A model generated the notes under the pieces. It saw only the letters and a list, made by a program, of their open reading frames with translations. It did no database searches and was not told the origin of the DNA. A program made the translations under genes and the position numbers. A stretch of 35,940 bases of DNA from Candidatus Nitrotoga sp. 1052 (lineage in GTDB: Bacteria > Pseudomonadota > Gammaproteobacteria > Burkholderiales > Gallionellaceae): NCBI RefSeq assembly GCF_927312905.1, contig NZ_CAKMHQ010000060.1, forward strand, positions 1-35,940. The letters are read 5' to 3'. Positions 11,275 through 31,901 of the stretch are shown here, piece by piece (position 1 is the first letter of the stretch; every line of letters starts with the position of its first letter).

Positions 11275-14021
11275 TTGCCGCCTCCTATCGAGAGCTTCAA
11301 CACGCCCCGTTCGGGGAAGTTGGGATCGTTGTCCAGTCGTGCGATCTCCAAGCGTCCGACTGTCAGCACGCCGTCATCCATAGGCTTGGGCTCAGGTGGC
11401 GCACGCAGACGCTGAAAAGTGTTGATCACCACCGAGCCCACGCCTTGTATCACCTGCGCCGCTTCATAAATCGCGCTGAGATAAACCGCCTGGCCGAAGG
11501 TAAAGTTGTCGGGATGGAACAGCGCAGGCCTACCGTCGTCCAGCCAGCCCCGGCTGAATACGCGCATCAGAGCGGCGCGCACATCGGCGCGGAAATAATC
11601 CGGTTTGACGCACACTGTCATTTCCAGCAGCAGCGGCACATAACTCGGGCTGTTCACCTCAAGGTCATATCCGGCCATGCGATAACGCTCGACGTGGTCG
11701 CGGATGGTCTGCTCATAGACCGCATCCACTTCTCCGCCGCCTTTGCGATCGACGGTGAGAAACACCGTGTACCAACTGCCGGTCCAGCGGAAAGTGGCAG
11801 CAGCGCGCTGTACGCTGGGATGACGTTCGGTAACTTCGGCATAATCCGCCGGGGTGACGGCGCGTTCCTGGGTGCGAAACGCTTCCGGCGCATCGCGCCT
11901 GATGTCCTCGGCGTTTTCAGGATCGCTGCCGCCTTGCGCCGGCAGTGGATTCGACGCGCGCAACAGCCGCGCATCGTTGCTGACGATGTGCGCGATGGAC
12001 TCCAGACCGATGTTGCCTGCCACGCCATTGCCGACGCGATAGCTCGCGCTAAATGTGGTGCTGACGTCGGGACGCTTGCCGTGATAATCATCGCCGAAAC
12101 GCAGCAAGGCGCTGCCGTTATGCTCACTCTCCACCACGAATTCGCTCGCCCCGGCATCGCTAGCGAGCAGATCGGGGCGCGGCAACCAAGTATCTGGCGT
12201 ACCCTGGAAATTGCTGGCGAGAGAAATGGCGGGACGGGCACGCTGCGGCTCGGCGGTGGTGATCAATGCTGCGGCATCGGCCAGCGGCGACACCTGCACC
12301 TGCCCGCTATCCAGCCGCAGACGATAGGCGCTCACGCCGTCAGACACAGACCACATGCCATCGCCGCCTTGCACTACCACCGGTCCCGCCTGCAACAGCA
12401 CTCCTTGCGCCTGCAACGCATCGTGCAGCGCCGGTGTAAAACTGCGGGTCTGCAATGCGGTGACGATGGCCACTGTCGCAGTGAAGCTGAACAACGGCGC
12501 GGCTGTGAGCGATAAGGCATGAGTAAGTGGACGTTCCGCAAGTCGCGGCCGGAAACGTGGTGGCACGGCCTGCAAGGGCGGACGCTTGCAACTCAATATG
12601 TCGCTCTTGGATGCAAGGGTGAGTTGCGAGGCTGACACGACACCCAAATCTTCGCCAGTCAGGGTGCGACCATGATCGGCCAGCACGATATTGCCGTAAG
12701 CCGCGCTCACCTCACCGAGATAAGTCGCGCCGTGATCCAGGTCAGTGATAGTCGACAGGCATAATGGAAACGGCAGTGCGTCCTGTTCTACCCAGCGGAT
12801 CTCGGTAACATCCAGCGGATTATTGTTGGGTACTGGCAGGAAGAAACCACCGCAGGGGTCGCTATCCAAACGCACGTCGGTGAGACGCACCGCCCAGCGA
12901 TGCGCGCGGTCTGCATCAGCAGCATCTCCAGTGCGCGGGCCGAATTCTTCCGCGAACACCAACACGTCACCCGCCTTGAGATTAGGATAGTGTCCGTTGA
13001 GCGTCGCGCGCGTCGCTCCCTTGGGCAGACAGCATTCGCGCTCGCCCCAGGGATATAAACTGAAGCGTGCGTGATCCTGGTAAAGCAGGGTGTCTTCCAC
13101 CGTCTCGAACACCAGCGCACCATTTGCCAAGGCATCGCGCAGTTGGTCGCCGGACGGGGTGATGCGCTCGGGCGTGTTAGGCACGCGCGTGAGCAACGGT
13201 GTGCCGTGCGGAATATTTACACCGTCGTCGTTGACGAACAGTTGCACCCACACGCGGGCATTGCAGCCCTCGTGCACCCTATAATCCACCAGCCGCGCAT
13301 GGCGGCGCAGCGAGATGCGCTTGCGCGCGGTAGCGAGATAAGCTTCGGTGGCGACGGCGTCTTGCTGATAGGAAAGCTGATCGCCCACATAGGCCAGCAT
13401 TTCCACCAAGGTTACGCCGACATCGGCAGCGTTGCGGGTGGTCCAATCCGGCATGAGCGTGCTCATGCGGTCCAGCATCAGGCGGCGGAAGCTGGCGTAA
13501 TCCTTGGCGAGATAATCGAGGCGCGGATTCGTCGCCGGCGGCGTAGGACAGGGAGTAACGCTGGCGCAATCGAAATCCGATTCGCACTGCACCTTGAACG
13601 AGAACTGAATCTCGCTCAGGCGCGGATCGAAACCAGCCGGTGGCGTATCGCTGCCGGGACCGCTCAGCAGGCGTAGCGTATACAGCGAAAAATCACCGTA
13701 AATCTTGGTGCGGATCACCATGAATTTATTGAGAGGCACGAGGCCGTCGACCAGGCCGGGTGGCTCGCTGGCGGGCAACGCATTAGCGATCGCGACCCAC
13801 TCGATATCCACGCTCTTGATGCGCTCACCGCCTTCGATGCGGAAGTTATCCTTGGCGAGAGTGGCAGGCACTGCTCGCAGGAACTTCACGAACAGCGTGA
13901 GCTGGCGCGTGGAGTCTCCGGGAATACCACTGTCATGCACCTCCAGATATTCCAAACCGTTGAGGGTGCCGTTTAACTTTACTACTTCGCGGCGGCGCTG
14001 GTCGCAGCAGTAGTATTTCAT
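11271..14021 (-). CDS. baseplate J-like wedge protein (Pvc11-like)
   Basis: The 916-residue product is the second large protein of the putative baseplate assembly type. Hallmarks are PRLDYLAKDYASFRRLMLD, then TLVEMLAYVGDQLSYQQDAV with ARKRISLRRHARLVDYRV, and a C-terminal region with RFGDDYHGKRPD followed by RNGVAGNIGLE-like and RTQERAVTPADYAEVTERHP segments as in gpJ/gp6 wedge proteins. An open frame extends 46 codons further upstream, but it is antisense-like and Arg-rich; I chose the ATG at 14021, which overlaps the gp25 stop as ATGA. The gene also overlaps the next wedge gene by four bases. In contractile tails two such proteins build the wedge ring around the hub and trigger sheath contraction. 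Confidence 0.9.
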   Translation of the reverse strand: MKYYCCDQRRREVVKLNGTLNGLEYLEVHDSGIPGDSTRQLTLFVKFLRAVPATLAKDNFRIEGGERIKSVDIEWVAIANALPASEPPGLVDGLVPLNKFMVIRTKIYGDFSLYTLRLLSGPGSDTPPAGFDPRLSEIQFSFKVQCESDFDCASVTPCPTPPATNPRLDYLAKDYASFRRLMLDRMSTLMPDWTTRNAADVGVTLVEMLAYVGDQLSYQQDAVATEAYLATARKRISLRRHARLVDYRVHEGCNARVWVQLFVNDDGVNIPHGTPLLTRVPNTPERITPSGDQLRDALANGALVFETVEDTLLYQDHARFSLYPWGERECCLPKGATRATLNGHYPNLKAGDVLVFAEEFGPRTGDAADADRAHRWAVRLTDVRLDSDPCGGFFLPVPNNNPLDVTEIRWVEQDALPFPLCLSTITDLDHGATYLGEVSAAYGNIVLADHGRTLTGEDLGVVSASQLTLASKSDILSCKRPPLQAVPPRFRPRLAERPLTHALSLTAAPLFSFTATVAIVTALQTRSFTPALHDALQAQGVLLQAGPVVVQGGDGMWSVSDGVSAYRLRLDSGQVQVSPLADAAALITTAEPQRARPAISLASNFQGTPDTWLPRPDLLASDAGASEFVVESEHNGSALLRFGDDYHGKRPDVSTTFSASYRVGNGVAGNIGLESIAHIVSNDARLLRASNPLPAQGGSDPENAEDIRRDAPEAFRTQERAVTPADYAEVTERHPSVQRAAATFRWTGSWYTVFLTVDRKGGGEVDAVYEQTIRDHVERYRMAGYDLEVNSPSYVPLLLEMTVCVKPDYFRADVRAALMRVFSRGWLDDGRPALFHPDNFTFGQAVYLSAIYEAAQVIQGVGSVVINTFQRLRAPPEPKPMDDGVLTVGRLEIARLDNDPNFPERGVLKLSIGGGK

Positions 14022-14386
14022 AAGCCGCCTCCCGGCGCGATGATCTGCGCCACGCCGCGAGTTTGCGTGCGGCGTTCTACATATTGCACGGTGATGAGCA
14101 AGGCGCCGTCCTGCGCCTGCACATCGACGGCGTCGACGGTAATAACGTCGCTCAGCCATTGCTGCAAGGCGCCTTGAATCAGGAACTGCGTGGTCGCCGC
14201 CACTTCAGGGCTGGCGGCGGCGAACACCAATTGCATCACACCGCTGCCAAAGTTTGGCCGCATCACGCGTTCGCCCGGCGCAGTGAGCAACACTTGCTCG
14301 ATGAGGTCGCGAATGTAGCCGGACTCGTCCGTCTGCGCGGTGCGGCCGCGGCCGTCGAATTGGAAGGGATAGTCGATCTGGCGCAT
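14018..14386 (-). CDS. gp25/GPW-like baseplate protein
   Basis: The 122-residue protein is a GPW/gp25 family member, the small wedge protein that starts sheath assembly in contractile tails. The family pattern is visible: an N-terminal YPFQFDGRGRTAQTD, a helix with IRDLIEQVLLTAPGERVM, then RPNFGSGVMQLVF, and a C-terminal strand pair. Other reading starts extend upstream through a repeat element, but the ATG at 14386 gives the normal gp25 N-terminus. Its likely ribosome binding site, AGAGGT, lies inside the end of the inverted-repeat element at 14391-14563, so translation of this essential part may depend on the inserted repeat. It overlaps the following wedge gene by ATGA. Confidence 0.92.
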   Translation of the reverse strand: MRQIDYPFQFDGRGRTAQTDESGYIRDLIEQVLLTAPGERVMRPNFGSGVMQLVFAAASPEVAATTQFLIQGALQQWLSDVITVDAVDVQAQDGALLITVQYVERRTQTRGVAQIIAPGGGL

Positions 14387-14390
14387 AAGT

Positions 14391-14563
14391 ACCTCTAAAA
14401 ATTCAGAGTTCGCCCAAATGCAAGGCGCGGAAAAAATTTTGCAGCGCCGCATATTGAGCAATATGTAAGCAAGAAATTTTTTGCGAGCATCCGCTTCGCG
14501 GCTTGCCTGCATACCCCGCTACCGCAACGCAGCAGTTGGGATGAAGTATGGGTTTTTAGAGGT
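14391..14563. repeat. 173-bp inverted-repeat element (MITE-like) inside the eCIS operon
   Basis: The element is bounded by a perfect 11-bp inverted repeat, ACCTCTAAAAA at 14391-14401 and TTTTTAGAGGT at 14553-14563. Inside lies a nested dyad with outer A6/T6 tracts and an inner perfect hairpin CATATTG-AG-CAATATG. It fills nearly all of the space between the PAAR-like gene and gp25. A related copy begins at 35845, so this is a dispersed family. It encodes no transposase and would have to be moved in trans. The flanks show no clear target-site duplication. One end supplies the gp25 ribosome binding site. Confidence 0.75.
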
Positions 14564-14898: not shown

Positions 14899-15414
14899 TT
14901 ATATCACCGTGAGTGCCCCGAGATTGATGTCCACCGTCGGCCCGGTGAGATTGATCACCGCGCCCTTGCCGTTGGAGATCATGATGCCGACATCGGTCAC
15001 CGAGATCATGGCACCGGTCGCGGTCTGCAGCTGGATGCCACCGGTGGGGCCGGGTACGTCGCTGATAACCAGGCCATTCTTGAGCGGAGTCTGTAGCGTG
15101 ATACCAGGCACTGCAGGCGGCACCATACGCGACAGCACCGGCAGCTCTGCGGCGCTGCCCCAGAAGCAGCCGACCCATATCGGGTAATCTGGATTACCCT
15201 GTTCGAACTCTACCCACACGCCGCTGCCGATCATAGGCAACGCAAACATGCCCATATTGATCCCGGCCAGCGGCACACAGGGCATCGCCCAGGTCGCGGG
15301 GATGAGACCCGCCACATCAGGCACCTGCACCTGCAGCCGTCCCAGCTGCATCGGGTCTATGTTGTTGAGCACCATGCCGCGGTACTTGCCAAAGAAATTG
15401 CCGCTGTCGCTCAT
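14899..15414 (-). CDS. central spike protein, gpV/gp5 OB-fold
   Basis: The 171-residue protein is a baseplate assembly protein V type spike. The OB-fold is seen in KYRGMVLNNIDPMQLGRLQVQVPDV-like sequence at the start (shown here in part: LGRLQVQVPDVAG) and VWVEFEQGNPDYPIWVGCFWG. The C-terminal ~50 residues form short repeating strands (LQTATGAMISVTDVG, NGKGAVINLTGPTVDINLG), the trimeric beta-helix needle. There is no lysozyme domain as in T4 gp5. The ATG at 15414 overlaps the hub gene stop by ATGA. In PVC and Afp the hub and spike are one gene (Pvc8/Afp8); here they are split into gp27-like and gpV-like genes. Confidence 0.92.
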   Translation of the reverse strand: MSDSGNFFGKYRGMVLNNIDPMQLGRLQVQVPDVAGLIPATWAMPCVPLAGINMGMFALPMIGSGVWVEFEQGNPDYPIWVGCFWGSAAELPVLSRMVPPAVPGITLQTPLKNGLVISDVPGPTGGIQLQTATGAMISVTDVGIMISNGKGAVINLTGPTVDINLGALTVI

Positions 15415-16553: not shown

Positions 16554-16908
16554 CGATCACTCCCTGAACGCCTTCTGGCAAGGTGATGCTCAGGCGCTTG
16601 CCCGCAGTCTCCGTCAATTCATCCGGACGTATGGCGCCGTTGGCATCGCAGATGCGCCAGTACTGCGACGGATCGCCGATATAGCGCGCGGCAAGATTGT
16701 CCAGCCGGTCGCCCGCAGTGACCATGTGCTCCTGCAACAGCGAGAAATTCTCAGGCGGCGGCACGAATCGGCGCTTCAGGTACGCGACGACCGTGCCGTC
16801 CGGCTGAGCGGCCTGCACCGCCGCGATGCCATGGTAGCGGCTCTCGGGCGGAAACAGGGGGGTGACGAGCGAATTCGCCTGCATAAAAGCCTGGATCGGG
16901 TCTATCAT
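16543..16908 (-). CDS. LysM/gp53-like baseplate protein
   Basis: The 121-residue product has a LysM-like segment at about residues 61-108, with the sequence MVTAGDRLDNLAARYIGDP followed by QYWRICDANG and ending in a strand with KRLSITLP. The same arrangement occurs in gp53-like tail proteins and in the C-terminal part of Pvc7/Afp7, where it clamps the baseplate wedges or the hub rather than binding cell wall. A TTG three bases upstream is also in frame, but I chose the ATG at 16908 because AGGAGG is six bases before it and it overlaps the previous stop as TGATG. Together with the next gene upstream it may represent a split Pvc7. Confidence 0.88.
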   Translation of the reverse strand: MIDPIQAFMQANSLVTPLFPPESRYHGIAAVQAAQPDGTVVAYLKRRFVPPPENFSLLQEHMVTAGDRLDNLAARYIGDPSQYWRICDANGAIRPDELTETAGKRLSITLPEGVQGVIDAS

Positions 16909-17564
16909 CAAATACCTCCTATTCCCAGCGTGGAGAAAGCGCCCGCCTGGGCTTTAGCCGCAAGCCTTTCCTTGTTTTGCAAATAACTCATGAACAAACT
17001 GCCGCCCTTGTGATCGAAGCCGAGATCGTCCACGTTCAGCACCCTAAAACCGATACTTACTTTGGCGACGATCGGATTCAAGGACGGATCGAAGGCCTCC
17101 TCGGTAACGCTGAAATCCGTAATCCGCACCGGCACGATGCGATTTTTTCCCCATACAAAAAGAGCCAATGGCGCCTCCATCGGCGCGATCTCCAGCGTAC
17201 CGGACTGTGACATTGCATTGCGGTCGAGCAGCTGACCGCTGGTCGGGTTGACGAGCGATTCCAACACCGACACTTGCGGCTGGATGCCGTTTTCCACCAC
17301 GGAGCGATGTTGATCGGGAAACTCCAGTTGATCCGCCGCATCGATGTCCGCCTCCAGCTTGAACGTCTCCACCGCCGGACCCTTGAAGCGCATGGCCTCC
17401 GAGCGGTTACCGCCCTCGCCGCCGGCACCCTGTACTTGCAGGGTGCGCGTCATTTTTTCCGGGTTGTACTGCAGCGAAATGATGCGCAGCACCCGGCCCG
17501 ATTCGGCATCAATCAGCACGATGCCGCCTTTGAGAACTTTTGGGGAATTCGAATAGCCGCTCAT
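16908..17564 (-). CDS. contractile injection system tube-initiator protein (CIS_tube, Pvc7 N-terminal type)
   Basis: The 218-residue protein starts with the family segment ESGRVLRIISLQYNPEKMTRT-like sequence (in part: LRIISLQYNPEKMTRT), followed by a region containing GPAVETFKLEADIDAADQLE and, near 130-150, PLALFVWGKNRIVPVRITDF and VTEEAFDPSLNPIVAKVSIG. These mark the CIS tube domain, a tube-like barrel that links the inner tube to the baseplate hub. In several eCIS it is fused to LysM; here LysM is encoded separately in the next gene with a one-base overlap. The gene begins 130 bp after the transglutaminase-like cargo gene. That gap is AT-rich and could hold an internal promoter (TTGTTA and TTTAAT, 18 bp apart), so hub and baseplate genes may also be transcribed separately from the cargo. 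That promoter is speculative. Confidence 0.88.
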   Translation of the reverse strand: MSGYSNSPKVLKGGIVLIDAESGRVLRIISLQYNPEKMTRTLQVQGAGGEGGNRSEAMRFKGPAVETFKLEADIDAADQLEFPDQHRSVVENGIQPQVSVLESLVNPTSGQLLDRNAMSQSGTLEIAPMEAPLALFVWGKNRIVPVRITDFSVTEEAFDPSLNPIVAKVSIGFRVLNVDDLGFDHKGGSLFMSYLQNKERLAAKAQAGAFSTLGIGGI

Positions 17565-17694: not shown

Positions 17695-19035
17695 TTATTT
17701 GTCCATTAATCCCGTTGCTGGCAATTCGCGCTTGTCGAGCACTTTGGCACCTTTATGCCAACTATGAACTTCCTTGATCCACTCGGGAAGAGTGCGGTAA
17801 GTGTCTGTACCGGGCAAATGTCCCCAAAACTTACCGTTACCGGTGTATATAAGATTCTCCCCCAACACGCCGATGCCGCCACCGGGTGGGTAATTCGTGT
17901 TCTCGATGTAACCGGCTTCGCCGGGCACCCAGTCATTCATGTCGCTGCTGGGCTTGTCAATAATGTCCGCACCCTTGCTGCCTCCTTTCATCGTCAGGTC
18001 CGTAGCCGCCGCACAGCCGATTGCGTAAAGTTTTGCATTAACATTAAGATCGTCCCAAGCCTCTTGGCGATTCACATCGGGTTTCATCTTCCAGGTTCCT
18101 TTGCTGACATCCCACTCATAGTATTTAGGATTCATCGACCATCCGGCCAAAGCGGCGAAGCTGTATTCCTTTTGCCCTGCAAAAAAGACAATGCCAATCC
18201 GCGCTTTGATGTGGTTGTTCAGATTGGATGCTGCAACTGGGTCACTGCCGCCTTCGACGTTAAAGATGCGCGGTGAAGCCAGCATGTCGATGAGTATCTC
18301 CTGTTCGAAATTCACAGCTCCTCCTTTGGGACGTTCGTAGACTCTGTTACTTTCAGTGTAATGTTGAACCCCCTTTCCAGATAAAAATTTATTAAGCGAG
18401 GCTTGGGGATCACTCCTGATCTTGCGCTTGATCTGAGTGGGTGTCTGTTCCATCTGCACCACATGCGTCAACTCATGAGCAATCAGTCTGCGCCCCTCGT
18501 GCGACCCTGGCGCGAATCCGCCTGCCCCAAACACAATGTTGTGTCCCACCGTATAAGCATGGGCATGTAGGTCCCGCGCTGATTGCTCGGCAGCCAAGCC
18601 GGTGTGCACGCGCACCTGCGAAAAATCATGTCCGAAGCGCTGCCCCATGTCTTGCTGTAGCAACGTATCAAGCGGCCTGCCGGCACCGGCAAGCACGCGA
18701 TCGACACTGGCGGGCGCCCTATCAGCCTCACCGGAGGATTGCCCCGTTAAGCGTTGAATGCGCGGCGGTATCCCACTGACGGTGGAATGTGCCGGCGCTG
18801 CCAGTACTTGATCAGCAATCCGGTCCGCCTCCTGTTCCAGCGGATCGTTGCTTGCGCCTATGCTGAGTCTCTTTTGCAAACGTTTTTTATTGCATTCTTC
18901 ACATTCACCACTTAATGACGATGACGCCGGCCCACCACAGGCGCATTTGCGCTGCAACAGCAATCCCGCTTGAGGCGATTTACCCACGAGCAATGATTTG
19001 GCGACAGCGTTCTGTAGTGGTGCAGCGGTACTCAT
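17695..19035 (-). CDS. eCIS_core (DUF4157) cargo protein with a Tgl-like transglutaminase domain
   Basis: The 446-residue protein has three parts. Residues ~25-50 carry a four-cysteine motif (C31, C33, C45, C48), residues ~58-195 are the eCIS_core domain with DPLEQEADRIADQVL and a zincin-like HELTH at 187-191, and residues ~205-446 form the cargo domain. The last part matches Bacillus spore transglutaminase Tgl: IGCAAATDL around Cys341 (Tgl Cys116), GENLIYTGNG with Glu393 (Tgl Glu187) and FWGHLPG with His406 (Tgl His200). The Glu-to-His spacing of 13 is the same as in Tgl, and both share a preceding PGEAGYIEN / PGDVVYFKN-like strand. The glutamate before the cysteine in Tgl is Gly340 here. 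Tgl crosslinks glutamine and lysine side chains, so I infer an injected protein-crosslinking or deamidating effector. AGGAG lies upstream of the ATG. I see no obvious immunity gene beside it. Confidence 0.85.
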   Translation of the reverse strand: MSTAAPLQNAVAKSLLVGKSPQAGLLLQRKCACGGPASSSLSGECEECNKKRLQKRLSIGASNDPLEQEADRIADQVLAAPAHSTVSGIPPRIQRLTGQSSGEADRAPASVDRVLAGAGRPLDTLLQQDMGQRFGHDFSQVRVHTGLAAEQSARDLHAHAYTVGHNIVFGAGGFAPGSHEGRRLIAHELTHVVQMEQTPTQIKRKIRSDPQASLNKFLSGKGVQHYTESNRVYERPKGGAVNFEQEILIDMLASPRIFNVEGGSDPVAASNLNNHIKARIGIVFFAGQKEYSFAALAGWSMNPKYYEWDVSKGTWKMKPDVNRQEAWDDLNVNAKLYAIGCAAATDLTMKGGSKGADIIDKPSSDMNDWVPGEAGYIENTNYPPGGGIGVLGENLIYTGNGKFWGHLPGTDTYRTLPEWIKEVHSWHKGAKVLDKRELPATGLMDK

Positions 19036-19206: not shown

Positions 19207-19413
19207 TCACAGGGATTGGTATTCCAGTTGGCATTGCCAGTTTTCGGCCAATAACAAGCTTCCGTTTAAACCAGCTTTATTCTTCGCACACCCCGCACAC
19301 TCCCCGCCTGCAATCATATGATTGCAGCAAGTACACTTGCGCTGAAGCAGGCCTTGAGCAGGCGGCAAAAAACTTGCCGTTTTAGCTTGTTGGGCGACAA
19401 TTACTTTATTCAT
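19207..19413 (-). pseudogene. remnant of a fourth eCIS_core cargo gene
   Basis: The frame from the ATG at 19413 encodes 68 residues with the same leader as the intact cargo proteins: GLLQRKCTCCNHMIAGGEC and CAGC, equivalent to LLQRKCACGG...GECEEC. After the cysteine cluster the similarity stops; the expected IGASNDPLEQEAD segment is missing in this frame, and a stop follows. The 171 bp to the next cargo gene contains no recognisable core or toxin domain in any frame. It looks like a deleted or decayed cargo gene that kept its N-terminal tag. A short functional zinc-finger-like protein cannot be excluded. Confidence 0.6.
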
Positions 19414-19509
19414 GACCGATGCCTCCATACACCGCTTGCGCAATTTGCAGATCACAGGCACCGCCGATCAACTCAACCAACTCATCAACTGCAAGAATTC
19501 CACTGCGCT

Positions 19510-19845: not shown

Positions 19846-19847
19846 GG

Positions 19848-21710
19848 TTATGGCCCCGGAACGACGATCCACGTTTCTATTTTTCTTCCTGATTCTTGGT
19901 CGATATATACTTTTTTTATGGTGCCTCCCACCGCTTTGGCGACCTTGTCGTGGTCGGCTTCTTGTTTTATCGGATTGCGGAGCACGATGGTGCCTCCAGG
20001 GGCAATAATGCGGGCAATCTCTTCGGCGAGACCCGGTATACCAATGGGACCACTTTCGGAAGTGACCAAATCCGCAGCATGGTCGGCGATCGGCAGCGTG
20101 GCGTCCTTGGCGGAAAACTTGCGGTAAATCAGATTAGGCACGCGCGAGTTGCTGATGCCGGTGCTGCTGGTGCGTTCGGCCATGCCGATGTTGATCGCCC
20201 CTTTGAAGTAACCCTCGCCGAAGATGTCTACGTGATACTTGGCCGTGGTAGGAACGTTTTCGATGTGGGTCTTAAACTTTTTACTCTGATCTTTACCTTC
20301 TCCTACCGCCCAACCTGTGTAGGTTTCTTTCGCTGCATCAGGATACTTGTGCAGCGCGAGCAATTCATCAATTGCTATCCACAGTTGTTCGGCAGATGCA
20401 TAGATGCGCCGGTAGTCATCCAGATTGCGCCGTGTCAACTTGGCACCCTGCGGAGCCAGTGTTTTGCCTATGCTCTTAAGCCAATCCTTTACTTCGCTAC
20501 GCCATGCCGAGACCAGCGTAAGATTCGGACGTGTCGGATCGACTTTAGCTCGCCGGTACAACGCCCACGACCTGCTGATGCTCGAAGTAGGATCCAGCCC
20601 TAGTTCGCCCGACTCCAGCGATGGCGTTATTTCCTGGATAATCACACTGCGCCAAAAGTCCGGCGGAACGGCCCTAGACGGTTCGCCATGTTTGAATATG
20701 CCGATCACAGGGCAATCGGCTCGTAGCTTGCGCGCTATGTCGGCAATCCGGTTGGCCCGGTAGCATGACAGGTCCCTGCTGAAACCCGCATCGCCTTCTT
20801 GGCTGGCAAAACCGTGGATCATGAGTTCGCTTCCCACCTTGAGTTTGCTGATCTTGGCTTCCTCGCCCGAGAGAAGATCATCGCAACCCACCTTGAACTG
20901 AAACTGCCAACCGACTATGCCCCGTTCACTTGGCGTGCAATCAGGCTTTGGAGTTCCTAGCCCGGCGGAATAACATTTGCGCTGGATACTCGTAAACCCA
21001 TGAGCGATGGAAGGAACACTGCGCCCCTGCATGACCGCATCGGCGGCAGCGTCGGCTTCACGTTCTCCGGCCTCGCCCGGTGTACTCACCGCGAGTTTCA
21101 TCTGTGCAGCAACCTGTTGACCGCGTTGTTGCACGACATGCGTCAATTCATGGGCAAGCAATCGGCGTCCATCATTGGTGCTCGGAGCAAACTTGCCCGA
21201 ATCAAAAACTATATCGCGTCCGGCAGTGTAGGCTGGAGCATTCAATTCACGAGCCGATTGCGCGGCCGCAGAGCCAGAATGAACCCGCACCCCAGAAAAG
21301 TCGTGACCAAAACGTTGTTCCATATCCTGCCGCAGCACTGGCTCGAGCGGCCTGCCGGAACTGGCAAGGACATGCTCTACGCTAGCGGGTGCAGTATCTG
21401 TACCCTCGGTCGCTTGCCCCGAGTCACGCTGAATACGGGGAGGTATACCACTAACTGGAGAATGTAACGCTGCTGCCAATACCTGATCGGCAACCTGGTC
21501 CGCTTCCTGTTCCAGCGGATCATTGCTTGCACCTATGCTAAGTTTGGTTTGCAAACGTTCGCTCTTGCATGCCTCGCATTTACCCGTTAATGACGATGCT
21601 GCCGACCCGCCACAAGCGCATTTGCGCTGCAACAGTAATCCCGCGTGAGGCGGTTTGCTCACAATCGGTGATTTAGCAGCAATGTTCTGCAGTGGTACAG
21701 CTGAACTCAT
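19848..21710 (-). CDS. eCIS_core cargo protein with OmpA-like and methyltransferase-like domains
   Basis: From the ATG at 21710 the product is 620 residues. A TTG nine bases upstream is in frame, but GAGGG is better spaced for the ATG. In order: a four-cysteine tag (CACG...CEAC), the eCIS_core domain with DPLEQEADQVADQVL and HELTH, a second short READAAADAVMQG motif that looks like a partial core repeat, an OmpA-like segment (about 265-365, with LMIHGFASQEGD and RANRIADIARKLRAD), a helical linker, and a C-terminal part (about 490-620). The last part has YHVDIFGEGYFKGAINIG, then LPIADHAADLVTSESGP and EIARIIAPGGTIVLRNP, which follow motif I, the acidic loop and motif V of class I SAM-dependent methyltransferases. 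Motif I is not canonical, so activity is uncertain. I infer a large injected effector, with the OmpA-like part perhaps used for anchoring. Confidence 0.82.
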   Translation of the reverse strand: MSSAVPLQNIAAKSPIVSKPPHAGLLLQRKCACGGSAASSLTGKCEACKSERLQTKLSIGASNDPLEQEADQVADQVLAAALHSPVSGIPPRIQRDSGQATEGTDTAPASVEHVLASSGRPLEPVLRQDMEQRFGHDFSGVRVHSGSAAAQSARELNAPAYTAGRDIVFDSGKFAPSTNDGRRLLAHELTHVVQQRGQQVAAQMKLAVSTPGEAGEREADAAADAVMQGRSVPSIAHGFTSIQRKCYSAGLGTPKPDCTPSERGIVGWQFQFKVGCDDLLSGEEAKISKLKVGSELMIHGFASQEGDAGFSRDLSCYRANRIADIARKLRADCPVIGIFKHGEPSRAVPPDFWRSVIIQEITPSLESGELGLDPTSSISRSWALYRRAKVDPTRPNLTLVSAWRSEVKDWLKSIGKTLAPQGAKLTRRNLDDYRRIYASAEQLWIAIDELLALHKYPDAAKETYTGWAVGEGKDQSKKFKTHIENVPTTAKYHVDIFGEGYFKGAINIGMAERTSSTGISNSRVPNLIYRKFSAKDATLPIADHAADLVTSESGPIGIPGLAEEIARIIAPGGTIVLRNPIKQEADHDKVAKAVGGTIKKVYIDQESGRKIETWIVVPGP

Positions 21711-21767
21711 TAACTTCAACCCTCTTGGCGATGGTTATAATTCATCTGATCTTTATAGATGCAAATA

Positions 21768-22817
21768 TTATTTCTGTAAAAATGGTAGCGGCTTCCAATC
21801 CTTAAAATTGGCATCAAATTGGAAGATAGGTATCGGCGCTACTATTGAAGTTGTTTTTAACTCTCTGTCCGTTATTTCCCACCATTTGGGATTGCTGGCT
21901 TTTAATTGCGCATCAATGGCGAGCGGAGCGGTCAGATTGGCGGCTTTGCCTGCCCATTTATCGCTCACTCCAAAGCGTTTAAAGAAGTCCAAATTGTATT
22001 TCCATACACCAAGGGCTGAACTTGGATCCCAAAGCTGAAAAACATTACGCTCGAAAAAAGGTTGCTTGAGACTTAGAAAATCGGGTTCGGGAAGTTGGAC
22101 GGAAAGCGTTGAATCGTCGGTTTTATTTTTCTCGGGATTCGCAACAGGTTTATCTTCCTGCTTTTGTATAGTGTGTTTACTCCCCGAGGATAATGTAAGT
22201 TTTTCACCGCCTTGGCCAACATGAATCCCTGCCGCGACTGTTTGCTGCACCACATGCGTCAACTCATGGGCAATCAGTTTGCGTCCCTCGTGCGACTCTG
22301 GCGCGAATCCACCCGCACCAAACACAATGTTGTGACCCACTGTATAGGCATGGGTGTTAATATCTTGCGCCGATTGCTCCGCGACGGAGCCGGTATGCAC
22401 CCGCACCTGCGAAAAATCATGACCAAAGCGCTGCCCCATGTCTTGTTGTATTGTCGGATCAAGCGGCCTACCGGAACCAGATAGCACGCGGTCTACGCTG
22501 GCGGGTGCAGTTCCTTCATCGCCTGTTGATTGCCCGGTGAATCGCTGTATGCTCGGTGCCGCTCCGCTTACTGCGGAATGAGCGGGTGCTGCCAATACTT
22601 GATCCGCGACCCGATCTGCTTCCTGCTCCAGCGGGTCGTTGCTTGCGCCTATGGTGAGCTTGGCTTGCAAGCGTGTCTTACCCTCGTATTCGCTGGTCAG
22701 CGACGACTTTGGCAAGCCAAAAGCGTATTTACGCTGCGACAACAGTCCCGCGTTAGGCGAATTGCTCAAAGGCTGTGACTTGTCGGTAGTGCTCTCCTGC
22801 GCCGCGAAAGTGCTCAT
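21768..22817 (-). CDS. eCIS_core (DUF4157) protein with a short conserved C-terminal domain
   Basis: The 349-residue protein has the eCIS_core domain at about 52-195, with DPLEQEADRVADQVL and HELTH at 184-188. A Lys/Asp/Pro-rich linker follows (about 200-240), then a ~110-residue C-terminal part with FERNVFQLWDPSSALGVWKY, DFFKRFGVSDKWAG and NPKWWEITDRELKTTS. This ending looks like a conserved tail seen in other eCIS_core proteins, but I cannot name a function. The four cysteines present in its two paralogues are all replaced (YAFG and EYEG in place of CACG and CEEC). The ATG overlaps the upstream small gene by ATGA, so it is the cargo-region gene most tightly tied to the structural operon. 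It could be a structural or loading component rather than a toxin. Confidence 0.8.
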   Translation of the reverse strand: MSTFAAQESTTDKSQPLSNSPNAGLLSQRKYAFGLPKSSLTSEYEGKTRLQAKLTIGASNDPLEQEADRVADQVLAAPAHSAVSGAAPSIQRFTGQSTGDEGTAPASVDRVLSGSGRPLDPTIQQDMGQRFGHDFSQVRVHTGSVAEQSAQDINTHAYTVGHNIVFGAGGFAPESHEGRKLIAHELTHVVQQTVAAGIHVGQGGEKLTLSSGSKHTIQKQEDKPVANPEKNKTDDSTLSVQLPEPDFLSLKQPFFERNVFQLWDPSSALGVWKYNLDFFKRFGVSDKWAGKAANLTAPLAIDAQLKASNPKWWEITDRELKTTSIVAPIPIFQFDANFKDWKPLPFLQK

Positions 22818-23068
22818 ATCTTCATCCCCTTGCCTATACCCTGCGCCACTTGCGAGCCGACGCGCTGCGGTTTTGAATTCTGGCCGATGTGTATGCTGTC
22901 GACCCTCAGCCGCGACACATCACCATTTGCTGTCAACTGTTGGGCGGCCTGTGGATCGGCAAACAGACGGGTCAATTCCTGCTGCAGGCCCTCGGCGATG
23001 CCATGCCGGTCTTCATGCCTGAAACCTTTCAATACCAAGCTGTCGATGTGAAGGACGACGCGTTTCAT
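22814..23068 (-). CDS. small conserved eCIS-locus protein
   Basis: The product is 84 residues from the ATG at 23068, which overlaps the ATPase stop by ATGA; a GTG six bases upstream is an alternative. The sequence starts MKRVVLHIDSLVLKGFRHED and is predicted to alternate a strand, a helix with LQQELTRLFAD and a polar C-terminus. Similar small proteins sit between the ATPase and eCIS_core genes in related loci, as far as I recall, but their role is not known to me. There are no cysteines, signal peptide or membrane segment. Possible roles are an adaptor for the ATPase or a cargo loader. Confidence 0.75.
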   Translation of the reverse strand: MKRVVLHIDSLVLKGFRHEDRHGIAEGLQQELTRLFADPQAAQQLTANGDVSRLRVDSIHIGQNSKPQRVGSQVAQGIGKGMKI

Positions 23069-24996
23069 ACCCACCCCCGAGTTTCCGCGTCGGTCAAAGG
23101 GCGCTCACGCTTTGAACCCTCGCCGTGGGCGGCGTGCAGCAGATGCACCATACCGACAGCCTCGCCTGCATCGGCAGCCAGGAATGCGGCATTTAGAGCA
23201 ATGTTGCGGATGTTTCCGCCTGCCACCTGGAGCTGCGCCAGCTTGCGGTAGTCCAGGCCATGGGTCGGTGTGGCAGAGGGAAATACACTGCGCCAGATGG
23301 CCTCGCGCTGTTCGGTATCGGGGAAAGTGAATTGCACAACGAAACGCAAACGCCGCTGAAATGCTGTATCCAGCGACGTCTTCAAGTTGGTGGTCAAAAT
23401 GGCAAGGCCGGTGTAAGCCTCCATGCGTTGCAGCAAATAACTCACTTCGATGTTGGCATGGCGGTCATGGCTGTCTTTCACTTCGCTGCGCTTGCCGAAC
23501 AGGGCATCGGCCTCGTCGAATAGCAGGATTGCGCCGCTGTCCTCGGCGGCATCGAAAACCTTGCGCAGGTTCTTTTCCGTCTCGCCGATGTATTTGCTGA
23601 CCACTGAGGATAGGTCTATGCGGTAAAGATCGAGGTGCAGCTCGTTGGCCAATACTTCGGCGGCCATGGTTTTGCCGGTACCGCTTTCACCAGCGAACAG
23701 GGTGCTGAGGCCCATGCCGCGAGCACTCTTGCGGGCAAAGCCCCATTCGTCGCAAACCTTGAGCCGGTTGCGCACATGGCTGGCGACCTGGCTCAGGATC
23801 ACTTTCTGATGTTCCGGCAGGATCAGATCTTCCCAGCGGGAGGCCGGCTCAACACGCTGCGCCAAGTCATCCAGCTGTCGTCGCCCCAAAGTGCGGCATG
23901 CTCGCCACAGCAGTTCGTCCGGTTTATCGCTTGCGCTGATAGCGCCACTGATCTCGGCACCGGTGCTCAGGATCGTTTGTGCGCTCAATCTGTACTGCGA
24001 CGCGACCCCATCCAGCGAACCATTAAGCTTCTGCGCCGCTGAACCCAATGCCTGTTGCCACAAGCGTCTTTGATCCGTGGCGCCCGGTTTGTTTACGGTA
24101 AAGCGCAGGGTGCTGCGTTGCAGCTCCAGCGGATCATGGCTGGAAACAAACAGCAATCCACTTAAGTTTTCGGCGAGCCGGGTGACTGCGGCTGCATTTG
24201 CCTGATCGCGGCATTCAATCAGCAAGGCACTGGACAGCAGCGCGGATTCCCGCTGCCACAGCACGGCGAAGGCGTTACGTTCATGAATACCCGCTGGTAT
24301 GTCTTCCGCGTGCAGGATATGAAGTTGCATCCCGAGGAGTTCGGCTGCGACACTGGCGGCGATATCTGCCTGACCGTCGCGGTCATCCCCCAGCAGTTGG
24401 ATAACCGGGACAGGTGCATTGCGCTCAAACAACATCTCCAATATAGCTTGTGCAGTTTCGCGTTGAACATCCGCCATCGTCGCTGCCACGCCGCTGTTTT
24501 GCAGCAGGGGTTCCAGGCGGGTGTCGAGGTAATTCATCCCAGCCAGGAAGTGCAGCACCCGTTCGTCTATGCGTAAGCGCGCATTTGCCAGGCTGGTTTC
24601 TTCGGTAACCTCAATCAGGCGCCACCGGCGCAAGGGGCGTATCGGACTGAGCGCACTCCAATGCGGTTCTTCCAGCGTGGCCAGCGCCAAACTGAATGTC
24701 GCATAGGATCGCTGGGGATTGCTTTGCGCAGTGGCGCACAGCGAGGCAAATTTTGCGTCCAACTCCACGCCTGCACAAAGCAGGAGAACGTCTCGCTCGA
24801 AAGTGCTGAGACCGAAGCAATCCACCAGGCGATCTATGGCTGACTGTGCCGATAATACCGCGCGAATTTCGGCTGCTGTAGCCATTGCCGGTTCCTGGTC
24901 TTCACCAGCCAGGCGCGCCTTGATGCGAGCAAGTTCAGCCACCATCAGGCGTTGATTTGCATCAGTCCAGTCGTGGCGTGGGTCGGGGGCGTTCAT
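23065..24996 (-). CDS. AAA+ ATPase of the eCIS (Pvc15-like)
   Basis: The 643-residue protein has a helical N-terminal half, a first degenerate ATPase-like domain (about 195-310, without a Walker A motif) and an active C-terminal AAA+ domain. In the latter, Walker A is GESGTGKT (436-443), Walker B is LLFDEAD (491-497), sensor 1 is TTN near 535-537 and the arginine finger is R548/R549 in FQRRLRF. In PVC and Afp, Pvc15/Afp15 is required for particle production and is thought to load cargo or act on assembly, unlike ClpV, which recycles T6SS sheaths. It overlaps the DUF4255 gene and the following small gene by ATGA on both sides and lies directly before the cargo genes, which fits a loading role. 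Confidence 0.93.
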   Translation of the reverse strand: MNAPDPRHDWTDANQRLMVAELARIKARLAGEDQEPAMATAAEIRAVLSAQSAIDRLVDCFGLSTFERDVLLLCAGVELDAKFASLCATAQSNPQRSYATFSLALATLEEPHWSALSPIRPLRRWRLIEVTEETSLANARLRIDERVLHFLAGMNYLDTRLEPLLQNSGVAATMADVQRETAQAILEMLFERNAPVPVIQLLGDDRDGQADIAASVAAELLGMQLHILHAEDIPAGIHERNAFAVLWQRESALLSSALLIECRDQANAAAVTRLAENLSGLLFVSSHDPLELQRSTLRFTVNKPGATDQRRLWQQALGSAAQKLNGSLDGVASQYRLSAQTILSTGAEISGAISASDKPDELLWRACRTLGRRQLDDLAQRVEPASRWEDLILPEHQKVILSQVASHVRNRLKVCDEWGFARKSARGMGLSTLFAGESGTGKTMAAEVLANELHLDLYRIDLSSVVSKYIGETEKNLRKVFDAAEDSGAILLFDEADALFGKRSEVKDSHDRHANIEVSYLLQRMEAYTGLAILTTNLKTSLDTAFQRRLRFVVQFTFPDTEQREAIWRSVFPSATPTHGLDYRKLAQLQVAGGNIRNIALNAAFLAADAGEAVGMVHLLHAAHGEGSKRERPLTDAETRGWV

Positions 24997-26333
24997 GGTA
25001 CGGTTAACACTTGTGTGCTGTCGAATTGCGGCGGCGTAGTAAGCCGGTTCACCAGCAAGCTATCAGCGCCATCGACGCGCAAGCGCAACAGGTGGCTCCC
25101 CGCTGGCAATTGCACATACTTAAATTGAAGGGTGGCTGTCGGGACAGTAAATTTCTCTGGTGCCGCCTCATATCCGCCTGCATTGAGGCTTATTCGTTGA
25201 CCGGGCCGGGCTTGCGGAGCAAAAACAAGATTGATGGTTACACCGGAAGAGTCGCGTGTGGCACTGGAACTCACTACGTCGATGCGCGGTGCCAGGAACA
25301 GTGTAAGCGAATTGCTACTGCGTATTTCAGTCTCGCCGGGCCGTTGTAAAAGTGCAGTTACCTCCCATATACCCGCAGGCCAATCGATGTTGTCCTGAGC
25401 GGTATTAGGCAAGGTCACTGAAAAACTCTCTTCGTTTGCATTAGTACCGAAAGAGATATCAATCGGTGCCGTCAGGCTGGGATGCGCGAAACGCACGACA
25501 AGATTTGTTCCGCTGAGGTTGTAGCCTTGCAGTTTGATGGCGTCGCCGAGCCGCGCGGCTACCTGCTTGTTGGGCAGCTCTATGCCAGCGAGAATCGGGT
25601 AAGGAGGGGTAAGCCCAGCCACAGCAGTGATGCCACTTTCGTACCACGTATCTACATTTAGCGGATCGGGCTTTACCACAGGCCCCCGTGTAAGCACTGG
25701 CAGGGATGATCGTACTGATTGGGTCGATTCTATTAACACCACGCTGGCCATGTAGGCTGCGGTTGGACGCAAATGGCTTTGCGTGGCGGTCCAGAGCTTG
25801 GACATTTCTTCGGTGTTGAGATATTCCGGCGTGATTTTGATCAGCTCGATCTGGTTTTCAAGTCCAGAATCCGCCAAGGCTTTCAGCGCCGGCGGAAGCG
25901 CCGTACCACCTATCGGAGGCGATGGATCGAGTGCCTTACGAATAGCTTTGCGACTGAGTATAGGCATTTCGTGCAGAAGTTGCATGGCATAACCGAGCAA
26001 AATTTCGCCGTGCAGGTCTTCGCTGCCGTGAGCAGAAAGCAGGTAATGCAGGTTGAGAGCGAGCGGTGCGTTGAATAGTCGCTGGTTACCGGAGGTATCG
26101 AGCGTAGGAAGCCTTTCGTTGCGCCAACCACTGTTGGGCGTAACGTGGTACATGAACAGATTTAGTTGGGAGGACTCAGTGCCACCATTTGACGGTATCA
26201 CCCGGTCAGGTGGGCCAGCGGTTACCGAGACCGTAGCACCGAGAATGCCTGTTGCGTCGTTGTTGATCAGCCCGTCATTGAGCAGATCGCGCAACACTGC
26301 GGTCACCCCGGCAATGGCGAGAGCGCTGCTCAT
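24993..26333 (-). CDS. DUF4255 protein, tail terminator/cap (Pvc16-like)
   Basis: The N-terminal ~200 residues match DUF4255 (Pvc16_N): ALAIAGVTAVLRDLLNDG at the start, then LNLFMYHVTPNSGWRNE, PLALNLHYLLSAHGSEDLHG and LLGYAMQLLHEMPILSR. In Afp and PVC the corresponding protein caps the end of tube and sheath and stops growth. The C-terminal ~240 residues add beta-rich, immunoglobulin-like segments (for example NLVVRFAHPSLTAPIDISFG and IDVVSSSATRDSSGVTINL), which could decorate the cap. The 446-residue gene overlaps both neighbours by ATGA. Confidence 0.92.
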   Translation of the reverse strand: MSSALAIAGVTAVLRDLLNDGLINNDATGILGATVSVTAGPPDRVIPSNGGTESSQLNLFMYHVTPNSGWRNERLPTLDTSGNQRLFNAPLALNLHYLLSAHGSEDLHGEILLGYAMQLLHEMPILSRKAIRKALDPSPPIGGTALPPALKALADSGLENQIELIKITPEYLNTEEMSKLWTATQSHLRPTAAYMASVVLIESTQSVRSSLPVLTRGPVVKPDPLNVDTWYESGITAVAGLTPPYPILAGIELPNKQVAARLGDAIKLQGYNLSGTNLVVRFAHPSLTAPIDISFGTNANEESFSVTLPNTAQDNIDWPAGIWEVTALLQRPGETEIRSSNSLTLFLAPRIDVVSSSATRDSSGVTINLVFAPQARPGQRISLNAGGYEAAPEKFTVPTATLQFKYVQLPAGSHLLRLRVDGADSLLVNRLTTPPQFDSTQVLTVP

Positions 26334-27064: not shown

Positions 27065-27801
27065 ACGCCCACCATGTCGAGATAAGCTGCACGCCGTTGG
27101 GGCGAGAGAGCGAATATTTCCGGTTCAGTCCAACCATATGCCTGGGCAAGGCTATGCACTTCGGCAAGCAAGGCTCGGGCACGCACATCGATTTCATCCC
27201 ACAACAACGTGCCGATATTGAAGTTTGCCAACCAACTGTGGCCACAATCCTCACAGCTAAGGGATAGGTTTATCTCAGCCGCAGGATCAAGTTCCTCCAT
27301 GGCCGCTTCGGCCTCGGCAAGCATATTTGCAAAAAAACCCGCATCAATTTTCTCAGGTCGGTCAAGGCAACATCTTTCCAGTAGCTTCACTGCCGCCGCA
27401 TTGATATCCTGCTCCCCGCTAACCGCCGCGAGGTCGCGGCTGCATGGTACGCGGAAGCGAAGACTGGAGACTTCAAACTCGGCTGGTGTAACTTTGAAAT
27501 CGCTGCTCGTCTCGTCCTCGTTGGTAGCAGCAAGTAGCTGCCCGGTATAGAGGGCGACTTCCATGCGTGTGCCGCAATGCTCGCAATCAATGCAGGCAAT
27601 AATGCGCGGTCCGAAGCAAGTTTCGCGCAGGCGTAATAGCACCCTGTTAATTGCTCCCAACGGCAGGTCTGGAAAACTGGAAGACGGTAAATCCGGCCGC
27701 GCCCAAGCGTAAAGCAACAATGCTCGGTCAATCGGATGCCGCGCGAGGCCGCGCTCCCACAGAGCGAGTATCTCCGCTTCGCCAGGAACTTGCATGTGCA
27801 T
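27061..27801 (-). CDS. cysteine-rich baseplate protein, T4 gp26-like
   Basis: The 246-residue protein carries two cysteine pairs that could bind zinc: CIDCEHCG near residue 73-80 and CEDCGHSW near 184-191. Between them are helices (LAEAEAAMEELDP), and the end reads YGWTEPEIFALSPQRRAAYL, the closing segment of T4 gp26-like and related baseplate or tail-assembly proteins. It lies directly after the tube gene, with its ATG overlapping the tube stop by one base (TGATG) and no good ribosome binding site, so translation is probably coupled. The family call is from pattern and place; a chaperone role in tube or baseplate assembly is the main alternative. Confidence 0.7.
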   Translation of the reverse strand: MHMQVPGEAEILALWERGLARHPIDRALLLYAWARPDLPSSSFPDLPLGAINRVLLRLRETCFGPRIIACIDCEHCGTRMEVALYTGQLLAATNEDETSSDFKVTPAEFEVSSLRFRVPCSRDLAAVSGEQDINAAAVKLLERCCLDRPEKIDAGFFANMLAEAEAAMEELDPAAEINLSLSCEDCGHSWLANFNIGTLLWDEIDVRARALLAEVHSLAQAYGWTEPEIFALSPQRRAAYLDMVGV

Positions 27802-28325
27802 CAGGCTGGTTCCGTAAAGCTGGGTTCGCTGGGCTCGGTTACATCGTAGTCGCGTTCCCAGCCCTCGTTTTCCAGCTTGATGTGCTGGATGGCCACCGCA
27901 TTCGCATTGGCATCGAGATCAGGCAAGGCCTGGTATTCGGACACCCAGCAACGATATACCTTGTAGGCAAGCGCAAGCTGGCCTGCCTCGTTATAGACCT
28001 CGATGATGAGATCCTTGCGGAAATCTTTCAGCGAGACCTCGGCGCCCAAACCGGAGCCGTAGTTCCAAACCTTGTTGGCCCACTTTTCAAATTCGGTGTC
28101 ATGGGTGACGCCGCGATCCAGCGTAATTGCCTCGAATTTGGTACGGCCGGGCGACTTGCGCGAAGTTGATGGATCGCCACCCTCCCGGTGTTCAACCAGT
28201 TCGGTGCTGCGCTTGATTGCGCCCACCTTGGAGATGCCCGCGACATAACGGCCATCCCATTTGACGCGGAATTTGAAATTTTTGTACGGATCAAAACGCT
28301 GTGCATTGACGGTGAATGTTGCCAT
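27801..28325 (-). CDS. inner tube protein (Pvc5-like, Hcp/gp19 fold)
   Basis: The 174-residue protein matches the tube family of eCIS and contractile tails: YKNFKFRVKWDGRYVAGISK at the start, RSTELVEHREGGDPSTSRKS and KFEAITLDRGVTHDTEFEKW in the middle and VEYNEAG-like, QHIKLENEGWERD near the end. These residues form the hexamer-building beta-barrel. It is encoded 22 bp after the sheath gene, with AGGAG before the ATG. PVC loci carry two or three tube genes; here I see one clear tube gene plus the initiator protein at 16908-17564. Confidence 0.95.
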   Translation of the reverse strand: MATFTVNAQRFDPYKNFKFRVKWDGRYVAGISKVGAIKRSTELVEHREGGDPSTSRKSPGRTKFEAITLDRGVTHDTEFEKWANKVWNYGSGLGAEVSLKDFRKDLIIEVYNEAGQLALAYKVYRCWVSEYQALPDLDANANAVAIQHIKLENEGWERDYDVTEPSEPSFTEPA

Positions 28326-28347: not shown

Positions 28348-29931
28348 TCAGGATTGAATTTGGCCGGCGATCTGCTGCAGCTTGATCACCACGAATTCGG
28401 CAGGCTTGAGCGGCGCGAAGCCCACCACGATGTTGACGATGCCCAGATCAATGTCGTTCTGGGTGGTGGTTTCCCTGTCGCATTTGACAAAGTACGCCTC
28501 GCGCGGGCTGCGGCCCTGAAAGGCGCCTTGGCGAAACAGGTTCTGCATGAAGGCACCGAGATTGAGGCGTATCTGTGCCCAAAGCGGTTCATCGTTCGGT
28601 TCGAACACCACCCATTGCGAACCTCGGAACAGGCTTTCCTCGAGGAACAGCGCCGTGCGGCGCACCGGAAGGTATTTCCATTCCGAGGCAAGTTGGTCCG
28701 CGCCGCGCAAGGTGCGAGCACCCCATACAAGTCGGCCGGTGACCGGGAAGGAGCGCAGACAGTTGACTGCCAGTGGATTGAGTTGGCCATTTTCACCATC
28801 GGTAAGTTTTACCGTGAGTTCGACCACGCCATTAAGTGTGGCATCGTTACCGGCAGGGGCTTTCCACACGCCACGCTGGCCGTCGGTGCGCGCCATGATT
28901 CCGGCCACCGCACCGCAGGGGGCAAAGTCAGCCAAGCGGTTTTCCTGCAAAGGATCGGGCTGGCGAAGATAGGGAAAATACAGCGCCGCATTTGCGCTGC
29001 GGGCCAGGCCCCAACTGACGCTGTCCAGGCCGCTGGCGCCGGTAAGATCGGAGGGCTCGTCCCAGGCCATGAGAGGGTCGACGATGTACATGGCGCGCCG
29101 CGCAAGGCAATAGGCAGCGGCGGCGCTGCGGGTTTGAGAATTCACATCGCCGCCTGGTTCACGCGTCAGCGGCGGAACGCACAGCAAATTGAACAGGTCT
29201 GCCTTCTGCAGTGCCCATATCCCCTGTTTGGCAGCTTCCAGCGAGGCCAGTGATATCTGGTTGTCAGTGATGGCTGCCCCTTCATTGCCAGTCGCCGTGA
29301 ACGCGGTCGAGGAGGCATTGTCCAGCAGCGGATCGGCGCCGGCGGGCGGATTGCCATGAGCGGTGGGACGCAGCGCAGGCACGGTGCCGGGTGGTGTGAC
29401 GATCCGCACCAAATTGGACTCCTGTTCGAGCACCCGCGTGACAAAGCGCGCGTTATTGGGATCGGTGGAGAGGTTAAGAAAGCGCTCGGTCGTACCAGTA
29501 GCGGTGTCGCGCACCGAAAGATTGAACAAGCTGTTAGCAGGATCGGTGGGGAGATGAGGGCGGGTGTTGTAATCGATGCGAACCCGCAGCTTCTCGCCCC
29601 ACTTGCCGGGATTCGCAGCAACCAGGTTGAAGCCTACCGCCAAGGTGAGGGTGGCGGCTGCCGCGCCATTGTGAACGCGCACGATAAGGGCGTCGGTGCC
29701 GCCATTCTGGAAGAACTGTTGTAGAGCGTAGCTCAGGGTGCTGTCGCGCCACAGCCCGCCGAAACGCCGCTCAAATTCGCCAAAGCTTTGCACGCGCACC
29801 GGATCATTCACCGGGCCGCGCAGGGTGCGCCCGATGAAGGCGGTGATGGAGGTAGCCACACCGGTGACAGTGCGCACGCCACTGGGCACTTCTTCAATAT
29901 AGACGCCAGGGTAGGATAAGGTAACCGGCAT
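28348..29931 (-). CDS. contractile sheath protein (Pvc2-4-like)
   Basis: The 527-residue protein is a phage-type tail sheath. The N-terminus has the signature YPGVYIEEVPSGVRTVTGV with SITAFIGRTLRGP, and FQNGGTDALIVRV near residue 75-90. The C-terminal 130 residues form the conserved handshake domain, with WGARTLRGADQLASEWKYLP, RTALFLEESLFRGSQWVVFE and LRQGAFQGRSPREAYFVKCD-like sequence, ending in FVVIKLQQ. The middle part is the variable outer domain. AAAGGAGGAG lies just before the ATG. PVC and Afp encode three sheath paralogues, while this locus has one, as in simpler eCIS. Confidence 0.96.
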   Translation of the reverse strand: MPVTLSYPGVYIEEVPSGVRTVTGVATSITAFIGRTLRGPVNDPVRVQSFGEFERRFGGLWRDSTLSYALQQFFQNGGTDALIVRVHNGAAAATLTLAVGFNLVAANPGKWGEKLRVRIDYNTRPHLPTDPANSLFNLSVRDTATGTTERFLNLSTDPNNARFVTRVLEQESNLVRIVTPPGTVPALRPTAHGNPPAGADPLLDNASSTAFTATGNEGAAITDNQISLASLEAAKQGIWALQKADLFNLLCVPPLTREPGGDVNSQTRSAAAAYCLARRAMYIVDPLMAWDEPSDLTGASGLDSVSWGLARSANAALYFPYLRQPDPLQENRLADFAPCGAVAGIMARTDGQRGVWKAPAGNDATLNGVVELTVKLTDGENGQLNPLAVNCLRSFPVTGRLVWGARTLRGADQLASEWKYLPVRRTALFLEESLFRGSQWVVFEPNDEPLWAQIRLNLGAFMQNLFRQGAFQGRSPREAYFVKCDRETTTQNDIDLGIVNIVVGFAPLKPAEFVVIKLQQIAGQIQS

Positions 29932-31789: not shown

Positions 31790-31853
31790 GCACAGAACTC
31801 CTTATCGCACCTAATCGGGATAGGAAGAAGCCTCACGACTCCTCCCTCCCACA

Positions 31854-31887: not shown

Positions 31888-31901
31888 GATGAATAAAATT
31901 C

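Follow-up and report, generated by a model that had tools for sequence, protein, structure and literature searches.

The protein encoded at 17695..19035 on the minus strand of a 35,940-nucleotide contig of Candidatus Nitrotoga sp. 1052 (NZ_CAKMHQ010000060.1, assembly GCF_927312905.1; the whole contig is called the window below) is probably a cargo of an extracellular contractile injection system (eCIS), with a C-terminus that would be a diverged cysteine acyltransferase of the Tgl family (PF20085) acting in the target cell. By Pfam score and fold the cargo is a member of the TGL family, yet it is not a Bacillus-type spore-coat Tgl. The domains and residues on which this reading depends are as follows.

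17695..19035, minus strand: eCIS cargo gene (P0001), 446 amino acids, with eCIS_core and a Tgl-like domain (open reading frame and Pfam)
18856..19035, minus strand: N-terminal leader, residues 1-60, with QRKCxC...CxxC, a putative loading signal (residues 1-194 are common to the cargoes of the slot)
18442..18675, minus strand: eCIS_core (DUF4157) domain, residues 121-198, with a HELTH motif (Pfam)
17698..18429, minus strand: Tgl-like domain, residues 203-446 (Pfam, phmmer, profile and model)
18016..18018, minus strand: Gly340 codon, at the position of Tgl Glu115 (alignment)
18013..18015, minus strand: Cys341 codon, equivalent to Tgl Cys116 (alignment)
17857..17859, minus strand: Glu393 codon, equivalent to Tgl Glu187 (alignment)
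17818..17820, minus strand: His406 codon, equivalent to Tgl His200 (alignment)

We infer both the loading role of the leader and its boundary at residue 60.

Assignment of the C-terminal domain

The Pfam search placed eCIS_core at residues 121-198 (E=3e-30) and TGL (PF20085) behind it, the full protein giving E=3.4e-12 and 46.6 bits against a gathering cut-off of 23.7, with the best stretch at residues 241-345. The Tgl-like domain alone matched PF20085 at E=4.8e-13 and 49.4 bits. Neither the cargo protein nor the domain alone matched PF09017 (Transglut_prok) in Pfam at E<=1. With phmmer, the only PDB chain matched at E<=1 was Geobacillus Tgl, 7c9j (E=4.9e-7, two stretches). The stretches pair the Cys of the cargo with the Tgl Cys, and the second pairs GEN...GH of Tgl with GEN...GH of the cargo. 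A profile built from the six genus members that carry the domain found 7c9j in the PDB at 5.8e-8, the next chain, an unrelated one, appearing at 0.4. With a profile of 16 homologues the E-values were 2e-28 for 7c9j and 7e-22 for 4p8i, the B. subtilis Tgl, but ten of the 16 rows are other PF20085 proteins, so that the window protein is not tested independently here. Judged from the sequence comparisons, the evidence for a Tgl-type domain is far beyond chance. An earlier note on this DNA, made from its letters, had proposed such a domain behind eCIS_core and the searches bear this out. A Tgl fold, which the note had anticipated, was also matched by the predicted structure, for which the Foldseek matches below E=1 were Tgl and included no peptidases.

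Putative catalytic residues

Gly340, Cys341, Glu393 and His406 were found at the positions given in the note, with the spacing of 13 between Glu393 and His406 that it had counted. All four residues are unchanged in 6/6 genus members, which are close relatives whose domains are 93-97% identical to that of the window. The ratio of non-synonymous to synonymous substitution rates (dN/dS) of the domain averages 0.14 (range 0.06-0.42) across the 15 possible pairings of the six genes, several of which show few differences.

A wider alignment, A2, adds to the six genus members ten PF20085 homologues taken from nine genomes outside the genus, with L016 and L068-L070 excluded. The Cys is present in all ten non-genus homologues. 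Both the Glu and the His are absent from all ten at the positions of Glu393 and His406, the alignment being gappy near the His, and four have a Glu two residues earlier. The residue preceding the Cys is D in five of them, S in three, G in one and E in one. Compared with Bacillus Tgl, the Nitrotoga domain has retained the Glu187/His200 side, as well as the equivalents of Tyr171 and Asn188 in the alignment, and has lost the Glu115 side. The distance from Cys to Glu is 52, as against 71 in Tgl (19 residues fewer).

Several of the results weigh against an active Tgl-type enzyme. Tgl Glu115 is replaced by Gly340 in all six genus members, and the genus rows of A2 are gapped where Tgl has the Q-side segment containing Trp149. 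For B. subtilis Tgl it is reported that C116A, E115A, H200A, W149A and Y171A are without detectable activity and that E187A has about 60% of the activity left (PMC6490927), while Glu115 is reported to be retained in four further Bacillus enzymes (PMC9689123). The residue lost in the Nitrotoga domain is thus, going by the alignment, one that is indispensable in B. subtilis Tgl. Given that E115A and W149A left that enzyme without detectable activity, a simple Tgl-like activity is less likely. The note had remarked that Gly340 replaces the second glutamate of Tgl and that activity might differ; the replacement is real, but the mutants described above and the absent Trp149 segment make the caveat an understatement. 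Confidence in the predicted structure is middling (mean predicted local distance difference test (pLDDT) 65.1 and predicted template modelling score (pTM) 0.65, the other four models being at 45-62), and the other PF20085 rows in the alignment given to the model can pull the prediction towards the Tgl fold. With the NCBIfam Tgl equivalog model PRK03187.1, whose cut-off is 307 bits, the cargo scored only 38.2, and PADLOC gave no match.

The same comparisons bear on whether the domain might be a Tgl-fold cysteine hydrolase, that is a protease or peptidase working on target proteins or on peptidoglycan, with no glutamine acyltransferase activity. This appears unlikely, as Foldseek below E=1 and the sequence searches below E=0.1 yielded Tgl and no peptidases, and as Glu393 and His406 are retained at the Tgl spacing even though all ten of the other A2 homologues lack both in that alignment.

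The cargo slot across the genus

The eCIS context claimed in the note is also supported. Genes for the sheath, tube, gp25, spike OB protein, two Baseplate_J proteins, CIS_tube, Pvc16_N and a winged-helix AAA ATPase surround the cargo gene, all on the minus strand, and three eCIS_core genes lie between the ATPase and CIS_tube genes (Pfam). Among the 19 Candidatus Nitrotoga genomes, 11 contain Pvc16_N, 10 eCIS_core and six the Tgl-like domain. Pvc16_N is on the same contig as the Tgl-like cargo in all six of the latter, 7.0-8.2 kb apart, and the Tgl-like gene is missing from five of the 11 genomes bearing Pvc16_N.

Eight other loci of the genus were laid out, namely three of the five others with a Tgl-like cargo and all five Pvc16_N loci without one. 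From the lengths and order of the genes, the Tgl-like cargo falls between ATPase and CIS_tube in 3/3 of the former. In the five loci without it the slot is filled by other genes, which are eCIS_core cargoes in four; the fifth locus (G014, L077) has no eCIS_core, its slot containing a 747-amino-acid open reading frame without a Pfam match and a clostripain-family protein. Cargoes matching P0001 in blastp at 1e-3 are 50-88% identical to it from residue 1 up to about residue 194-237, and only the Tgl cargoes align with it end to end. Since the shared residues stop at about 194-237 except in the Tgl cargoes, the leader and eCIS_core constitute a common carrier on which the C-terminus is swapped.

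If the Tgl-like domain were catalytically dead, it might serve in the particle for binding or structure, for example as a plug or adaptor. The loss of a residue reported as indispensable in B. subtilis Tgl (PMC6490927) would fit this, as would the ten other PF20085 proteins without E and H at these positions. However, all six genomes keep C341, E393 and H406 unchanged and the dN/dS is low, though the six are closely related, and because five of the 11 Pvc16_N genomes lack the gene, the Tgl-like cargo is not an obligate structural part. We therefore regard a dead domain as improbable. It is more improbable still that the place of action is the producer itself or its particle, where the cargo might crosslink particle or envelope much as Tgl crosslinks the spore coat. 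In favour of this, the role reported for Tgl is structural crosslinking (PMC6490927) and the window has no immunity-like gene directly after the cargo, the CIS_tube gene being 130 bases away. Against it, many tested eCIS toxins are reported to lack an immunity gene (PMC8213781), and the cargo has the same leader and eCIS_core as the exchangeable cargoes and is missing from those same five eCIS-bearing genomes.

Proposed action of the cargo

As an injected acyltransferase the cargo could act in the following way. The shared leader and eCIS_core would route it into the particle, which would inject it into the target cell. There a glutamine of one of the cell's proteins would be bound as a thioester by Cys341, with Glu393 and His406 assisting. 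The acyl group would then be passed to a lysine, giving a crosslink, to a small amine, or to water, giving deamidation, and the target would be damaged or reprogrammed. Computation has established the family and fold, the C/E/H conservation within the genus, the eCIS locus and the exchangeable slot, whereas loading, injection, chemistry and target are inferred. From the sequence, we think it more likely that the enzyme has few substrates or favours deamidation than that it crosslinks broadly as Tgl does, and the deamidase side gains weight because the Glu115 equivalent and the Q-side segment are missing. A fuller account, possible if on balance doubtful, is that the spore-coat Tgl fold was recruited as an interchangeable injected warhead, with the redundant Glu pair of Tgl cut to the Glu187 side and the gate for the glutamine substrate remodelled, to make a deamidase or crosslinker specific for a protein of the target cell and, in a nitrite oxidiser, a third independent transglutaminase-type lineage of eCIS payloads.

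If the proposal is true, the Tgl family would be added to the warheads of contractile injection, in a nitrite oxidiser for which the literature searches gave no report of such particles. The six orthologues, with invariant C/E/H and a Gly at the partner glutamate, would be a natural test of what role Tgl's second glutamate has. The slot in this genus is moreover a compact site of exchange, in which leader and eCIS_core are constant and the warheads vary.

Other features of the eCIS loci

The remaining eCIS genes of the window are listed below.

7792-11274 and 11271-14159, minus strand: two Baseplate_J proteins (library matches)
14018..14512, minus strand: baseplate wedge gp25
14899..15414, minus strand: spike/baseplate OB protein (Phage_base_V)
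16908..17564, minus strand: CIS_tube protein, bounding the cargo slot on one side (Pfam)
19848..21719, minus strand: second eCIS_core cargo, 623 amino acids, with a different C-terminus (Pfam, blastp)
21768..22817, minus strand: third eCIS_core protein, 349 amino acids (Pfam, blastp)
23065..24996, minus strand: AAA ATPase with winged-helix domain (Pvc15-like position), the other slot border (Pfam)
24993..26333, minus strand: Pvc16_N protein, eCIS marker (Pfam)
27801..28325, minus strand: tail tube (Phage_T4_gp19)
28348..29931, minus strand: contractile sheath

Within the slot of the window, an 84-amino-acid open reading frame (19207-19461, minus strand) looks, by eye, similar to just the leader portion of an eCIS_core cargo, for example L076:11855-13210. 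It gave no blastp match to P0001 at 1e-3, and may be what is left of a former cargo gene. An open reading frame of 120 amino acids (19510-19872, minus strand) overlaps the end of the gene for the 623-amino-acid cargo. In four of the eight other loci a gene for 139-144 amino acids lies directly behind a cargo of 570-618 amino acids (L071:9826-10242, L072:7540-7971, L073:8923-9339 and L076:13173-13589). These small genes behind cargoes are possible candidates for a chaperone or immunity gene.

Other contents of the slot were varied. A clostripain-family protein (Peptidase_C11) is found there in two genus genomes without a Tgl cargo (L074:8342-9556 and L077:9354-10571). Three cargoes of 437-452 amino acids (L075:6694-8007, L074:4339-5649 and L076:11855-13210) have a C-terminal H...SHACVHV, which we take to resemble the YkuD L,D-transpeptidase motif; the C-terminus of the L075 cargo had no Pfam match at E<=1 and no PDB match. 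Two eCIS_core cargoes (L074:5804-7936 and L078:9428-11548) show a weak C-terminal likeness, below cut-off, to ATLF and Zn_peptidase_2, and another (L073:4656-6404) has an Ntox16 toxin domain above cut-off at 8.5e-7.

Direct repeats of 132 bases (9169-9996) lie inside a 1160-amino-acid Baseplate_J/TIGR02243 protein, which also matches DUF346 and FG-GAP repeats. A group II intron (31814-33564, minus strand) with a reverse transcriptase/maturase (32226-33242) adjoins the eCIS locus. A diversity-generating retroelement next to the eCIS was rejected, because this reverse transcriptase is within the group II intron and because the two families of repeats detected, the 132-base repeats and the three eCIS_core genes, included no template/variable pair.

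Relatives beyond the genus

No relative of the cargo was found on viral contigs, and none at E<=1 on plasmids and phages. A scan of genome contigs, which reaches close relatives, gave three loci, all from Candidatus Nitrotoga, and a profile search with the cargo's own alignment found one of 398 genomes of the phylum, the window's own. PF20085 itself is present in 13 further genomes outside the genus, from samples of 61, 369 and 398 genomes that overlap, that each count the window's own genome and that are all from its own phylum. Two of the 13 also have eCIS_core, though not beside the TGL gene: in G025 the two are on different contigs and in G700 they lie about 320 kb apart. Among these distant proteins, L012-L015 and L017 are PF20085 members in which Asp precedes the Cys and which are without Glu187/His200 in the alignment, mostly with long low-complexity N-termini. 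In L016 the TGL match shares one open frame with a stretch that resembles, by eye, an ATP-binding AAA-type domain.

Comparison with known payloads

The Nitrotoga cargo has the features of an eCIS-associated toxin (EAT), namely an N-terminal DUF4157/eCIS_core and a gene within the eCIS operon. EAT14 from Chitinophaga rupis is reported to join DUF4157 to a domain of transglutaminase type (Transglut_prok, PF09017) and to be toxic in both E. coli and yeast, C298, D397 and H410 being required when it was tested in E. coli (Danov et al. 2024, PMC11297309). Both proteins thus have an N-terminal DUF4157 and a transglutaminase-type C-terminus, the EAT14 gene being downstream of the eCIS operon, and the distance from acid to His is 13 in both, within Cys-Asp-His in EAT14 and Cys-Glu-His in the Nitrotoga cargo. 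They differ in that EAT14 belongs to PF09017, has LysM and was modelled on 5m6q, whereas the Nitrotoga cargo belongs to PF20085, and in that the toxicity of EAT14 was tested by experiment whereas that of the Nitrotoga cargo is putative.

Pnf, a CNF2-like payload of the Photorhabdus PVC, is reported to deamidate or transglutaminate small GTPases (PMC8910223, PMC11495950). Pnf and the Nitrotoga cargo are both eCIS payloads, with Pnf coming from a different catalytic family. We know of no fusion of Pnf to DUF4157. The actin crosslinking domain of EAT13 is presumably of another family and chemistry than the Nitrotoga cargo. EAT13, from Candidatus Udaeobacter copiosus, is described as an eCIS-associated toxin predicted to crosslink actin, with DUF4157 genes on its flanks (Geller et al. 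2021, PMC8213781).

The note did not know crosslinking or deamidation as a described eCIS payload. This was too wide, because EAT14 (PMC11297309) and Pnf (PMC8910223, PMC11495950) have been described, but it may hold for the Tgl family: searches of the literature on eCIS or DUF4157 with transglutaminase gave no Tgl-family payload, and no report was found of Nitrotoga with contractile injection, eCIS or phage-tail particles, the supplementary list of predicted EATs in PMC11297309 lying outside both searches.

The closest enzymes are the Bacillus and Geobacillus Tgl proteins (4p8i and 7c9j; PF20085), which the Nitrotoga domain resembles in family, fold and the equivalents of Cys116/Glu187/His200, Asn188 and Tyr171. 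Unlike Tgl, it is fused to eCIS_core, has Gly for Glu115, is missing the Trp149 segment and falls below the NCBIfam equivalog cut-off. Crosslinking and deamidating eCIS payloads were thus already known, and it is the Tgl family as a payload that appears to be new.
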